DNA of 64,000 nucleotides from Actinobacteria bacterium HGW-Actinobacteria-7 (GTDB lineage: Bacteria; Actinomycetota; Coriobacteriia; Anaerosomatales; PHET01), in NCBI GenBank assembly GCA_002841275.1, contig PHET01000001.1, forward strand, positions 34,464 to 98,463, in the 5' to 3' direction. A model generated the notes under the pieces. The model did no database searches. It was not told the DNA's origin and saw only the letters and a program-made list of their open reading frames with translations. Of this stretch, positions 52,683 through 57,902 are shown one piece after another. The first letter of the stretch is position 1; each line of letters begins with the position of its first letter. Made by a program: the position numbers and the translations under genes.

Positions 52683-53759
52683 TCAGTCTTCTTTGTCAAC
52701 CTCGAAACGGACCCTGATATCCTCTCGGCCGACAGTGATCTTAGGCTCACAACGCAGGTGGAGGTAGTACTTCTCGGCAATGGCGTCGAAGGCCGATTCC
52801 AATTCGGACCGAAACGCCGCGAGGTCGGAGTGGTGGATCTTCAGACCGCGCCGGTCCCGGTAGATGTCCGGTGCGGACGGGCCTGCGGGTTCCACAGCTC
52901 CCGAGGCAGTCGAGAGCACTGAGCGCAGAGGCGTGATCTCGCCGGCCAGAACACGGTGAGCCGTGCGCTCCGAGACTCCCAACCCGACTTCGGCCGCAGT
53001 ATCCGCCAGCTCACCCGCGTCAGCCGCAGCGCCAGGTCGCTGCCACACCGGCAGTCGTTTCAGATCCTCGCAGAACAGGAGTTCGGACTCGTCCATCTCG
53101 AAGCGTGCAAGCATGACCAGTGTGGACAGAACCTCGCTCGGACTACCGATGAACACGTCGATTCCCGGGTGCTCCAACGAGAACTCGACGGTGCGCCGCA
53201 CGATGTTGTGAGGGCCCCGGGCGACGCGAACCACTCCGGACTCGTCCTTCTCCAGACTGGGCCACGTCGACTGGTCGCTGCGCTCTGTGAGCGTGGCGGC
53301 GTCGGCCACGACCCCGATAGACGCCCCTTTGTGCAGCCCGGAGGCCAGAAGGCGCGCTTCACTCGTGTTGCTCTTGATCGAGAACAGCGCCATCCCTCGT
53401 CCGTGCACACCCCAGCGGTCCATAACCATGGTCTCAAGCTTGCTTGTGACCCGCGGATCGAAGATGCGCTGCTGCATCGCGAGGGGGACGCCTACCCCGT
53501 CATCTATAACGGTTATCGTCCGCTGATCACCATCTCGGCCGGTGGCAAGGAAGATTCGCTGCGCGTGGGCATCGCGAGAGTTCCGAAGGAGCTCAACTAC
53601 GATGTCTTCCACGCTTCTGATGTCGTGCTTCGCTTGGCGCCGTTCAGCCTCAGAGACCTTGAGGACGACGAACCCATCGCCGAGATTCTCCTCGACCTTC
53701 AGGTACGCGTCTCCGGAAACGGAGGCAACGAAATTCAAGAGGCTATTGTCGTCAGTCAT
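52683..53759 (-). CDS. Orphan GHKL-type ATPase with HTH-like segment
   Basis: 358 aa. Residues 20-190 form a histidine-kinase/HSP90-like ATP-binding domain: N-box 'VVELLRNSRDAHA' (Asn60), G1 'VIDDGVGVP' (84-92) and G2 'GVHGRGMALFSI' (118-127). There is no phospho-acceptor His domain, no receiver domain and no membrane segment. Residues 249-272 ('ELADTAAEVGLGVSERTAHR' then V-L-A-G) look like a helix-turn-helix. Residues 305-358 form a separate alpha/beta tail. ATG 53759 lacks a clear ribosome site; the frame runs on to 53816. Neighbours are spoVS downstream and a GNAT gene 20 nt upstream. Role unknown. Confidence 0.8.
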   Translation of the reverse strand: MTDDNSLLNFVASVSGDAYLKVEENLGDGFVVLKVSEAERRQAKHDIRSVEDIVVELLRNSRDAHAQRIFLATGRDGDQRTITVIDDGVGVPLAMQQRIFDPRVTSKLETMVMDRWGVHGRGMALFSIKSNTSEARLLASGLHKGASIGVVADAATLTERSDQSTWPSLEKDESGVVRVARGPHNIVRRTVEFSLEHPGIDVFIGSPSEVLSTLVMLARFEMDESELLFCEDLKRLPVWQRPGAAADAGELADTAAEVGLGVSERTAHRVLAGEITPLRSVLSTASGAVEPAGPSAPDIYRDRRGLKIHHSDLAAFRSELESAFDAIAEKYYLHLRCEPKITVGREDIRVRFEVDKED

Positions 53760-53779
53760 GAGACAAGGATACAGGTAGT

Positions 53780-54268
53780 TCAGCGCCCGCAGGCACATCC
53801 GTCCTTCGCGAGCCAAACCAACCGCACTCCCCGCAGCTCCTCCCGATGGGTCACCCGATAGCCAAGCGCCGAGTACAGAGCCAGCGGAGCAAGCGCGTCC
53901 TCGCCGGTGAAGAGCTCGAAACGGCGGGCCTGTGGGAAGGCGGCCTCGGCGTGATTCATCAATCTCGTGGCTATGCCTCGCCTCAGGTGAGATGCCGAGA
54001 CAACCAGCCTTCCGAATTCCACCGAAGCATCACTGTGTTTCGCCCGGACACTCCCCACGATGCGGCCGTGATCAACAGCGACGAAGAATTCAACACCCTG
54101 CTCGAACAGCGTCAGTAGGTCCGCTGCCTCCTCTTGTAGAGGCGGTAGATCATCGGAATGCAGTCCAAGATCACGGGCGACGCGACCGAACGCCTCATGC
54201 TGAACACACAGAATCGAGGCCAGGTCATCCGCGTGAGCCGACCTGACAATCACACCATCTCGTGTCAC
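53780..54268 (-). CDS. GNAT-family N-acetyltransferase
   Basis: 162 aa. Acetyl-CoA binding motif A is 'GRLVVSASHLRRGIATRLMNHAE', motif B 'FELFTGEDALAPLALYSALGY'. GTG 54268 with GGGGGA upstream, right after the rny terminator hairpin. The C-terminus ends in 'KDGCACGR', with two Cys of unclear purpose. The acetylated substrate cannot be told. It is 20 nt from the GHKL gene and probably in the same transcript. Confidence 0.88.
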   Translation of the reverse strand: MTRDGVIVRSAHADDLASILCVQHEAFGRVARDLGLHSDDLPPLQEEAADLLTLFEQGVEFFVAVDHGRIVGSVRAKHSDASVEFGRLVVSASHLRRGIATRLMNHAEAAFPQARRFELFTGEDALAPLALYSALGYRVTHREELRGVRLVWLAKDGCACGR

Positions 54269-54330: not shown

Positions 54331-55872
54331 CTACTTCGCGAAATCGACCGCGCGACTCTCGCGGATCACCATCACCTTGACCTGGCCAGGATACTCCAGC
54401 TCATCTTCGATCTGCTTGGCGATGTCGCGGGCAAGAACGACCGCATCCGCGTCGTTGATCTGATCAGGCTTGACCATGACACGAATCTCACGTCCTGCCT
54501 GCATGGCGTATGTGCGCTCGACACCACGGTGTGAGTTCGCGACCGCTTCAAGCTTCTCCAACCGCTTGATGTAGCTCTCAAGAGTCTCACGACGCGCTCC
54601 GGGACGAGCCGCCGAGATAGCGTCGGCTGCCTGAACCAAGACGGCCTCGATGGTCTGAGGCTCCACATCGGCGTGGTGGGCTTCGATGGCGTGGACGATC
54701 GGCTTAGTCTCGTTCATTCGCCGTGCAAGGTCCGCACCGATCACGGCGTGAGGACCTTCTACCTCGTGGTCAATGGCCTTTCCAAGGTCGTGCAACAGAC
54801 CAGCGCGCTTGGCCAACGTCGGATCGATACCGAGTTCGCTTGCCATGACCCCTGCGAGCCAGGACACCTCAAGCGAGTGCTTCAGCACATTCTGCCCGTA
54901 GGAGGTACGGAACTTGAGGCGGCCGAGGGTCCTGATGATCTCCGGGTGCAGATTGTGCACACCGCTCTCGAACGCTGCCTGCTCGCCGGCCTCATGAATC
55001 TGTTGCGAGACGAGTGCCTCGGCCTTGTTGAACATCTCTTCGATGCGTGCTGGGTGTATCCGACCGTCCGCGATGAGCGTCTCGAGCGTGATACGACCGA
55101 TTTCACGACGCACCGGATCGAAGCTGGAGATGACGACGGCCTCAGGCGTGTCGTCGATGATCAGGTTGATACCGGTCATCTGTTCGAACGCGCGAATATT
55201 GCGGCCCTCGCGACCGATGATCCGACCCTTCATGTCGTCACTCGGAATGTGAACGACAGAAACTGTCGACTCGGCGGTATGGTCCGCAGCAACGCGCTGG
55301 ATGGCGATACTCACGATATTGCGGGCCTTCTTGTCCGCTTCTTCGCGCGCACGCGCCTCTGCCTCGCGTATGAATCCGGCGGCGTCGCGTTTGACATCCT
55401 CCTGGATTCTGCTTGTCAGTTCCTGACGAGCCTCGTCGGCGGTCATCCCGGCGACGGCCTCGAGACGCTGCCGCTCTTCGGCGACCATGCTCTCCAGCTC
55501 TTCCTCGCGCTTGATGATCTGGCCTGCCTGCGATGAGAGCTGATGCTCGCGCTTGTCGAGGGACTCCGCACGACGATCGATGGATCCCTCGCGCTCGGAA
55601 AGCCGATTCTCCAGAACCGAGATCTCCTTCCGACGCTCCTTAGCGTCGGTCTCCTCTTCCTGCTTCATGCGAAAGATCTGGTCCTTCGCCTCGAGGAGCG
55701 CTTCCTTCTTGGTTGCCTCGGCATGCTTCTCTGCGTCGCGAACCAGGCGTTCAGCCTCTTCCGAAGCACGAACCGCTCTGTCTTTGAGCAGAAAACGGTT
55801 GACGGCATAGCCGAGGGCGACACCGACAATGAGTCCGACGAACGTGAGTATGACTGTGACTACGGCGGTCAT
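54331..55872 (-). CDS. rny: Ribonuclease Y
   Basis: Membrane-anchored endoribonuclease that starts mRNA decay. 513 aa, usual size. One span at residues 4-24, a long coiled coil (30-200), a KH domain with '[20 protein letters not shown]', and an HD domain with '[16 protein letters not shown]' and '[10 protein letters not shown]'. ATG 55872 with AAGGAGGG upstream. The gene stands alone between an upstream ncRNA terminator and its own terminator. Confidence 0.97.
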
Positions 55873-55950: not shown

Positions 55951-55978
55951 CAAAAGGCCGGACGACGAAGCGTCCGGC
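55951..55978 (-). terminator. Intrinsic terminator of the recX-rny intergenic RNA
   Basis: Stem GCCGGACG (on the - strand) with CGTCCGGC around CTTCGT, followed by CTTTTG, a classical GC stem plus T-run read leftward. It ends the transcript that starts near 56120. Confidence 0.8.
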
Positions 55979-56121
55979 ATCAGAAGAACCCCTATGACCA
56001 CTCAACCGCGAATACGCGAACTAGGGGCCTGTGGTGCCCATAGTGTCGCGAGTATCCGAACTGCGGTCGAGCAAAACGCCGGAGCTGCACGCGCAGCCAC
56101 GGCAGAGAATCACTGATGCCG
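55951..56121 (-). ncRNA. Candidate free-standing small RNA (6S-like topology)
   Basis: About 170 nt on the - strand between recX and rny, with promoter at 56128-56157 and an intrinsic terminator at the end. Its first 8 nt, GGCATCAG (56113-56120), pair perfectly with CTGATGCC (55976-55983) just before the terminator. Inward, GCCGTGG pairs with CCACAGGC with one bulged A. On the 3' side CCCCTA/TAGGGG (56022-56027 with 55989-55994) encloses CGCG-TATT-CGCG. Closing stem, bubble with a 3' hairpin and distal stem resemble 6S RNA, but no sequence signature was confirmed. No ORF fits. Alternatively it is an rny leader with an attenuator. Confidence 0.55.
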
Positions 56122-56127
56122 CTGTTC

Positions 56128-56157
56128 ATAGTAGCTGTGAGCTGCGCACAGCGTCAA
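56128..56157 (-). promoter_or_regulatory. Promoter of the candidate RNA
   Basis: On the - strand TTGACG (56152-56157), 18-nt spacer, TACTAT (56128-56133). Start predicted near 56120, exactly at the 5' arm of the closing stem. Confidence 0.6.
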
Positions 56158-56202: not shown

Positions 56203-56829
56203 TCAAGCGTCGCTCTGGTCTGGTGTGGTCTCGGGCGTGTCTACCGCCGCCAAGGCAGTCCGCAGATCATAGCCTTTTGCCACAAGCTGCCTGATGAAGC
56301 GTTCCCTCTCGCGTCTGTCAGCGGGTACTCTACCGCCGAGAATACCGCGCGCCCGGGCGACCGGCTCTTCGGTCGCGCACTCTGCGATGGCAGAATCACG
56401 AATCTCCGCCGACACACCCTTGTCCGAAAGCTCACGAGCGATCCTCTGATCCCCGAAACCCGACCTGCGGCGTGAGCGGACATACATCTGTGCGTACCGA
56501 CGGTCATCGACCAAGAGGAGCTCGATGAATCGCTCCACCAGCGGGTCAACGACCGATGGAGGGTAGCCGTCGTCCAGCAGCTTCTGTCTGAGCTCACCGA
56601 CCGATCGCTCCCGATAGCCCACGAGGCGCAGAGCACGCTCACGCGCATGACGCAGCTCGGCGTCAAGAAGCTGATCTTCCAATAGCGCCCGGTCCAACTC
56701 GGTGCCCGCCTCGAGACCGATCTCCTTGACCACGGCGGCCGAGGTGAGTCTCACGGTTGTGTCGGAGAAGACGAGACGCCGGGCGCGACTACCTCGCCCG
56801 GCGTCTTCGATGGCTTCCACAGAGAGCAT
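56203..56829 (-). CDS. recX: Regulatory protein RecX
   Basis: 208 aa inhibitor/modulator of RecA filaments. Three-helix repeats typical of RecX: 'RALRLVGYRERSVGELRQKL', 'RFIELLLVDDRRYAQMYVRS', 'GFGDQRIARELSDKGVSAE'. The N-terminal about 45 residues are variable. ATG 56829 lies 9 nt after the recA stop, and AGGA within the recA end may serve as ribosome site. It shares the recA SOS promoter. Confidence 0.9.
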   Translation of the reverse strand: MLSVEAIEDAGRGSRARRLVFSDTTVRLTSAAVVKEIGLEAGTELDRALLEDQLLDAELRHARERALRLVGYRERSVGELRQKLLDDGYPPSVVDPLVERFIELLLVDDRRYAQMYVRSRRRSGFGDQRIARELSDKGVSAEIRDSAIAECATEEPVARARGILGGRVPADRRERERFIRQLVAKGYDLRTALAAVDTPETTPDQSDA

Positions 56830-56837
56830 TGGCTTGA

Positions 56838-57902
56838 TCAGTCCTGCTTCACAGCGACGGCAGCCAGTGCAGCGTCTGATGCAGCGGCATCCGCGGCCGC
56901 ACCAGCAACGGAGGGCAGACCCAGTGCGGACCGCACCTTCACATCGATCTCGCCGCGGAGATCGGGATGCTCGCGCAAGAACTCCTTGGCCGCCTCCCTC
57001 CCCTGCCCGAGCCGCTCCTCGCCGTATGTGTACCAAGCGCCAGATTTCGCGACGATGCCCTCTTCCACACCGAGGTCGAGTATCGAACCTTCTTTGGATA
57101 TACCGGTTCCGTACATCAGATCGAATTCAGCGACGCGGAACGGCGCGGCGACCTTGTTCTTCACAACCTTCGCACGGACACGGTTCCCGACAATTTCCGT
57201 TCCCTGCTTGATGGAGTCAATGCGGCGCACATCGATGCGCACAGTCGAGAAGAACTTCAGTGCGCGCCCACCAGTGGTCGTCTCAGGACTCCCGAACATC
57301 ACGCCGATCTTCTCCCGCAGTTGGTTGATGAAGATGCACGTGGTGTTGGACTTGCTGAGTGAACCTGCGAGTTTGCGCAGTGCCTGACTCATCAAACGGG
57401 CCTGAAGGCCGACGACCATGTCGCCCATCTCACCTTCGAGTTCGGCCCGGGGCACGAGAGCCGCCACTGAGTCGATGATCACGAGGTCTATGGCACCACT
57501 TCTCACGAGCATGTCCGCAATCTCGAGCGCCTGCTCGCCGGTGTCAGGCTGCGAGATCAGAATCTCGTCTATGTCCACGCCCAGACGTGACGCGTAGCTC
57601 GGATCGAGCGCGTGTTCGGCATCGATGAAGGCCGCAATCCCGCCCAAGGCCTGAGTCTCGGCAAGTATCTGAAGCGCAAGAGTGGTCTTACCGCTAGACT
57701 CCGGGCCAAAAATCTCAACGATACGGCCGCGGGGAACACCGCCTATCCCGAGAGCAGCATCAAGCGCCAAAGAACCGGTCGGGATTGCCTCAACCTGAAC
57801 AGTGGCAGCATGCTCGCCCAGCTTCATGATGGTGCCTTTGCCGAACTTCTTCTCTATCTGCTCTTTGGTGACGTCGAGCATCTTGTCCTTCTCGCGATCC
57901 AT
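56838..57902 (-). CDS. recA: Recombinase RecA
   Basis: 354 aa. Walker A 'GPESSGKTT' (66-74), '[16 protein letters not shown]', '[20 protein letters not shown]', and the L2 region '[21 protein letters not shown]'. ATG 57902 is chosen by family start and the AGGAG upstream; the open frame to 58025 runs through the promoter and is not coding. The C-terminus is Ala/Asp-rich. The upstream region holds a canonical promoter with a LexA box in its spacer. It is followed by recX. Confidence 0.97.

Follow-up and report, generated by a model that had tools for sequence, protein, structure and literature searches.

In leaders that switch between a terminator and an antiterminator, such as riboswitches and protein-leader attenuators, an aptamer-like closing stem lies beside an intrinsic terminator and has bases in common with it. 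RNase Y initiates much of the mRNA decay in Gram-positive bacteria. According to the available text of one report (PMC10303841), B. subtilis RNase Y lowers the level of its own mRNA, partly through a 164-nt 5´ UTR. The enzyme favours single-stranded AU-rich sites near structure; its cuts fall in the AU-rich UTR and in the first part of the open reading frame (ORF), and RNase J1 removes what remains (PMC10303841). The same text describes an element of E. coli rne which binds RNase E and speeds cleavage of the mRNA (PMC10303841). The words "terminator" and "readthrough" are absent from its main text. In the literature searched, as far as its available text goes, control of RNase Y dosage is described only for B. 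subtilis.

The locus presented here has the minus-strand order recA, recX, gap, rny and lies in the window, i.e. the whole stretch of 64,000 nucleotides that was analysed. Judging from sequence comparison, we consider it probable that the gap encodes a 5´ leader of rny which acts as an attenuator, with RNase Y feedback as its presumed purpose. The features are as follows.

54331..55872, minus strand: rny, ribonuclease Y, the gene proposed to be controlled (TIGR03319 of NCBIfam, 736 bits against a cut-off of 454)
55952..55956, minus strand: U-tract of the terminator, CTTTT, read from the sequence
55957..55978, minus strand: intrinsic terminator hairpin of 8 bp, from a pattern scan, with hairpin pairs kept in 43 relatives
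55957..56121, minus strand: putative leader RNA body with terminator, ~165 nt; 5´ end placed from the -10 box; supported by the fold (z -4.58) and family covariation
55976..55983, minus strand: 3´ arm of the closing stem P1, CTGATGCC, from sequence, fold and covariation
56000..56072, minus strand: long arm P3 and apical stem P4, predicted fold; P3 and P4 covary in relatives
56078..56103, minus strand: hairpin P2, predicted fold; P2 covaries in relatives
56113..56120, minus strand: 5´ arm of P1, GGCATCAG, from sequence, fold and P1 covariation in 43 relatives
56128..56157, minus strand: promoter TTGACG-18-TACTAT, 9/12 matches, with the same promoter in the same place in relatives
56203..57036, minus strand: recX ORF, the gene 5´ of the leader (RecX models cover residues 90-275 at E 5e-27, below cut-offs)

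The recA gene is clearly identified by NCBIfam. Because the recX ORF overlaps it, the true start of recX is probably internal. On the other side, a minus-strand ORF at 52683-53816 gives a weak match to ATPases of the MutL/histidine-kinase type, well below family cut-offs. The initial annotation stated that the element contains no ORF. The one notable minus-strand ORF, 45 aa at 56129-55992, starts within the -10 box and hence ahead of the predicted RNA 5´ end, and is therefore not a leader ORF.

The -35/-10 pair, the 8-bp closing stem and the terminator made of a GC stem and a T-run, all noticed earlier, are present. The promoter, which appears to be of sigma-70 type, is the sole promoter-like site in 2.5 kb scanned, where 0.6 would be expected; relatives carry TTGAC[G/C/A] and TANNAT with a spacer of 17-18 nt. 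P1 pairs 56120-56113 with 55983-55976. The terminator reads GCCGGACG-cttcgt-CGTCCGGC and then CTTTTGTTAT (55978-55947), and GCC at 55978-55976 belongs both to P1, as the last three bases of its 3´ arm, and to the base of the terminator stem. The body is predicted to form a three-way junction of P1, the small hairpin P2 and the long P3/P4 arm, and not the proposed succession of closing stem, bubble and distal stem. It might be argued that such a fold is functionless, a chance product of GC-rich sequence in a short gap: hairpins are common in such sequence, and 2 terminator-like sites in 2.5 kb compare with 1.5 expected by chance. The probability of this reading is negligible. The predicted energy of -80.9 kcal/mol is equalled by 0/200 shuffles (-62.4 ± 4.1), promoter and place are conserved, and covariation, given below, already refutes it.

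The succession of closing stem, bubble and distal stem had been likened to the plan of 6S RNA, and searches with the 6S and other Rfam covariance models were recommended. At curated cut-offs over the window, no family matches the element. At E up to 10, only chance matches appear on it and RF00013 gives none. Further, no convincing match was found at the loci of 15 relatives (E up to 1), and none at 20 further loci of the class at curated cut-offs. The 6S model does match elsewhere in the same genome (G000:C14:42227-42399, i.e. L114:528-700) with 42.0 bits, just under the cut-off of 46.4, and it matches in 53/61 genomes searched, in 37 of them above cut-off. Instead of the large central open bubble of 6S RNA, the element has P2 on its 5´ side and the long P3/P4 arm. 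The 6S identity is thus rejected, and the label should be dropped. Some bacteria have two 6S RNAs, and together with similar size and closing stem this might speak for a further 6S-like RNA, one that binds the RNA polymerase holoenzyme. The missing RF00013 match, the 6S match elsewhere in this and most genomes searched, the three-way junction and the fixed link to rny make such an RNA highly improbable.

The 6S matches of the same order (G000:C14:42227-42399, L200-L215) have a peculiarity of their own. They lack a recognisable terminator and run into a downstream ATG, which has a GGAGG site and a similar protein start, MR[K/R]...; 6S may be co-transcribed with this gene. In the genome of the window, the ORF just 5´ of the 6S match ends, by eye, like aspartyl-tRNA synthetase. 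These loci were intended as a control for terminators and were dropped, because they are directly continuous with an ORF.

As judged by covariation, the RNA is a structured family of the Anaerosomatales (Coriobacteriia). Searched with blast, the RNA of the window gave only short matches of 19-36 nt in relatives. Several of these lay in front of rny, which led to comparison of the gaps upstream of rny, a comparison also advised in the initial annotation. From 90 such loci (6 without the N-terminus of rny), 59 have a promoter followed by GGC/GCA. After 4 spurious ones were set aside, together with 7 without a hairpin by pattern, 48 were left, and removal of 5 near-duplicates gave the 43 sequences of alignment A1. 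All 48 relatives encode an RNA closed by GGCA...UGCC between promoter and hairpin. In A1, a plain sequence alignment, 91.7% of cells are paired in P1 and hairpin, against 25.7-41.9% after sliding; two-sided changes occur in 31 cells, against 7.1 ± 2.5 in shuffled alignments. RNAalifold recovered only the terminator from A1, because the middle of this alignment is misaligned, and the analysis turned to a subgroup alignment and to covariance models. The subgroup of 11 sequences gave the full consensus fold. For the whole fold, the 30 model-aligned sequences of A6 (matches drawn from 32 of the 90 sources) have 193 two-sided cells against 65 ± 6, with two-sided changes in 37/46 pairs, in an alignment that is fitted to the structure and biased towards it. 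Model R1 also matched these near-palindromic RNAs in antisense; to keep such matches out of A6, the limit was tightened and some sources were omitted.

Among 296 genomes of the class, covariance model R2 matches in 43, once in each and always in the same order, with no match away from rny; in 246 genomes of the phylum, the model search gave 3 matches, again all in this order. The copy in the window is a weak member. R1 at E 0.05 does not find it, and the genome-scale R2 search missed it, so that its own genome is outside the 43. With filters off, R2 gives it 15.1 bits (E 0.076), more than any other match at this locus, and at the expected position. It is accordingly assigned to the family by position, promoter, P1 and hairpin. 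Within its own family, P1 displays a two-sided change, AGCATC/GATGCT in one genome (G003) versus GGCATC/GATGCC; the same genome keeps a P1-like stem and has no recognisable form of the terminator. Another family (f12, L068-L086) keeps the hairpin behind P1 with a weak U-tract, often 2-3 T of 8 by a count whose pattern runs past the hairpin in some rows (among them L075, L079, L085 and L086). The hairpin may therefore not terminate in all members. Its retention in f12 despite a largely lost U-tract raises the question of its role. The family is apparently undescribed: in the available text of the literature searched (PMC8040213, PMC2864571, PMC6429828, PMC7247131), unnamed motifs in supplementary lists apart, no rny leader of this kind is described.

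There are two important aspects of the link to rny. Firstly, an attenuator is expected to have a promoter upstream on the same strand and to keep a constant position just ahead of a single gene. Both are found, the promoter in the 48 leaders and the position in the R2 matches, of which 43/43 share contig and strand with rny and precede it by 86-233 nt. In one genome (G048) the RNA, scored at 118.8 bits, stays with rny where the gene 5´ of it is not recX, and in several genomes of the class (L090, L093, L098) rny has a similar promoter and leader behind other genes. Secondly, an attenuator should have no separate promoter after its terminator. Between hairpin and rny, the 48 leaders reach a best promoter score of 5.4 against 5.6 in shuffled sequence, and a site with 9/12 matches occurs in 1/48. 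The promoter score found in 47/48 is circular, because the 48 were picked partly by promoter; the downstream score is not. An intrinsic terminator between promoter and rny is strong in the window and in Eggerthellaceae, and its U-tract is weak in many f12 members. In other families of the class (L094, L095, L098, L099), the same kind of promoter precedes rny with terminator-less leaders; two of them (L094, L095) form a strong closing stem, unrelated in sequence.

Genomes of the class family f19, which we take from named Coriobacteriia relatives to be Eggerthellaceae, appear to carry a shorter analogue, with no homology to the leader of Anaerosomatales implied. In 28/33 loci, a GC hairpin with at least 4 T ends 23-56 nt before rny; by pattern, L239, L240, L245 and L100 have no terminator and L243 gave a wrong hairpin. 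The terminator is preceded by P1 (of GCUUGAGU...GCUCAUGC type), P2 and a U/A-rich linker. P1 and P2 covary, with 21 two-sided cells against 10.7 ± 2.4 shuffled in alignment A7, which holds 26 of the 28 leaders (L225 was omitted for its closeness to L222; L244 has a P1 too different to align). Individually, the z-scores of the P1 duplex are modest, with a median of -1.6 and at most 1/100 shuffles as good in 7/28. P1 and terminator overlap by at least 3 nt in only 11/26. The core shape differs from that of Anaerosomatales, and R2 does not match this leader. In L216-L244, AUA is invariant in the linker after P2 and is a possible RNase Y site. Since 23-56 nt leave no room for a second promoter, rny of Eggerthellaceae would have to be read through the terminator.

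This spacing bears on the proposal of a free-standing RNA of ~170 nt. A structured RNA of ~165 nt with its own promoter and terminator stands, supported by covariation; its independence is less likely, as comparison favours an rny leader. A trans-acting regulatory RNA beside rny, the gene being expressed by incidental read-through of its terminator, would fit the single copy per genome and the promoter, the closed 5´-3´ stem and the terminator of most members, features typical of stable small RNAs. We nevertheless regard it as unlikely. All 43 matches adjoin rny, even in the absence of recX, a further promoter for rny was not found, the terminator of Eggerthellaceae is close to rny, and in some families (L098, L099) the same kind of promoter drives rny via a terminator-less leader. 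Taken together, the link, the loss of recX, the lack of a later promoter and the spacing in Eggerthellaceae argue for an rny leader. The attenuator that the initial annotation named as its alternative is thus favoured by the link, the promoters and the terminators of Eggerthellaceae alike. Comparison shows that the fold is conserved, that it is invariably tied to rny, that a second promoter is lacking and that GCC is shared. Against the leader reading stand the weak copy of the window in R2, G003 without a recognisable terminator, the weak U-tracts of f12 and the 11/26 overlap in Eggerthellaceae. Transcription of rny could also come from upstream of recX.

An attenuator further needs a pairing that competes with its terminator. 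In 41/43 sequences of Anaerosomatales, GCC has two partners, the 5´-terminal GGC (P1) or the GGC before the U-tract. The mean energy of the hairpin is -14.6 kcal/mol with the shared pairs and -6.2 without them, and the median difference between the P1 and terminator states is 1.9 kcal/mol. The common GCC therefore suggests that P1 acts as an anti-terminator. The same layout, a junction fold beside P1 with an overlapping terminator, is usual for a ligand-binding riboswitch, which would control rny by termination. Few bases are invariant outside P1 and hairpin, however, the core shape differs between Anaerosomatales and Eggerthellaceae, and no Rfam family matches, so that we consider a riboswitch very improbable.

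We suggest the following model of the rny leader. Transcription from the promoter would start an RNA of ~165 nt, which folds into a closed three-way-junction domain of P1, P2 and P3/P4, the 3´ strand of P1 continuing straight into the terminator hairpin. Some transcripts would end at the terminator as short RNAs and others would continue into rny, and termination would be partial and regulated. Because P1 forms first, the closed domain could prevent the terminator from reaching full length and so allow transcription of rny. If the domain were opened or cut, termination would be favoured. The signal may be RNase Y itself, which by cutting or binding the leader would limit its own synthesis; such feedback, for which autoregulation of B. 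subtilis rny by a different mechanism is a precedent, is the likely purpose of the leader. In a more specific and rather doubtful version, RNase Y acts on the nascent leader, cutting or opening its closed form, the freed GCC completes the terminator, and transcription of the enzyme's own gene is switched off. If this is true, an RNase would be controlled by transcription termination instead of mRNA decay, across Anaerosomatales and, in a shorter form, Eggerthellaceae.

The place is an ordinary one for a regulatory leader, the cis link to the RNase Y gene is clear and a switch is plausible. For Coriobacteriia, gut Eggerthellaceae among them, an rny leader with a structured body and a terminator would mean a new family of RNAs and an independent way of controlling RNase dosage. 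This reading replaces a tempting annotation as 6S RNA (SsrS, RF00013), which is alike in its ~170 nt and closing stem but differs in topology, has no match here in sequence or structure and has its matching locus elsewhere in the genome. RF00040, which we take to be rne5, the 5´ UTR sensor of enterobacterial RNase E, is alike as a structured leader of the gene for a major endoribonuclease; enzyme and RNA are unrelated, and RF00040 does not match at the element. With terminator/antiterminator leaders the element shares the closing stem beside an intrinsic terminator and the bases common to both, whereas only 3 basal bp are shared here, the gene encodes an RNase and there is no known ligand. The 5´ UTR of B. 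subtilis rny, as far as the available text on it goes, is the leader of the same gene and of similar length (164 nt). There, however, it is AU-rich and cleaved, whereas the fold described here is GC-rich, covaries and lies next to a terminator.
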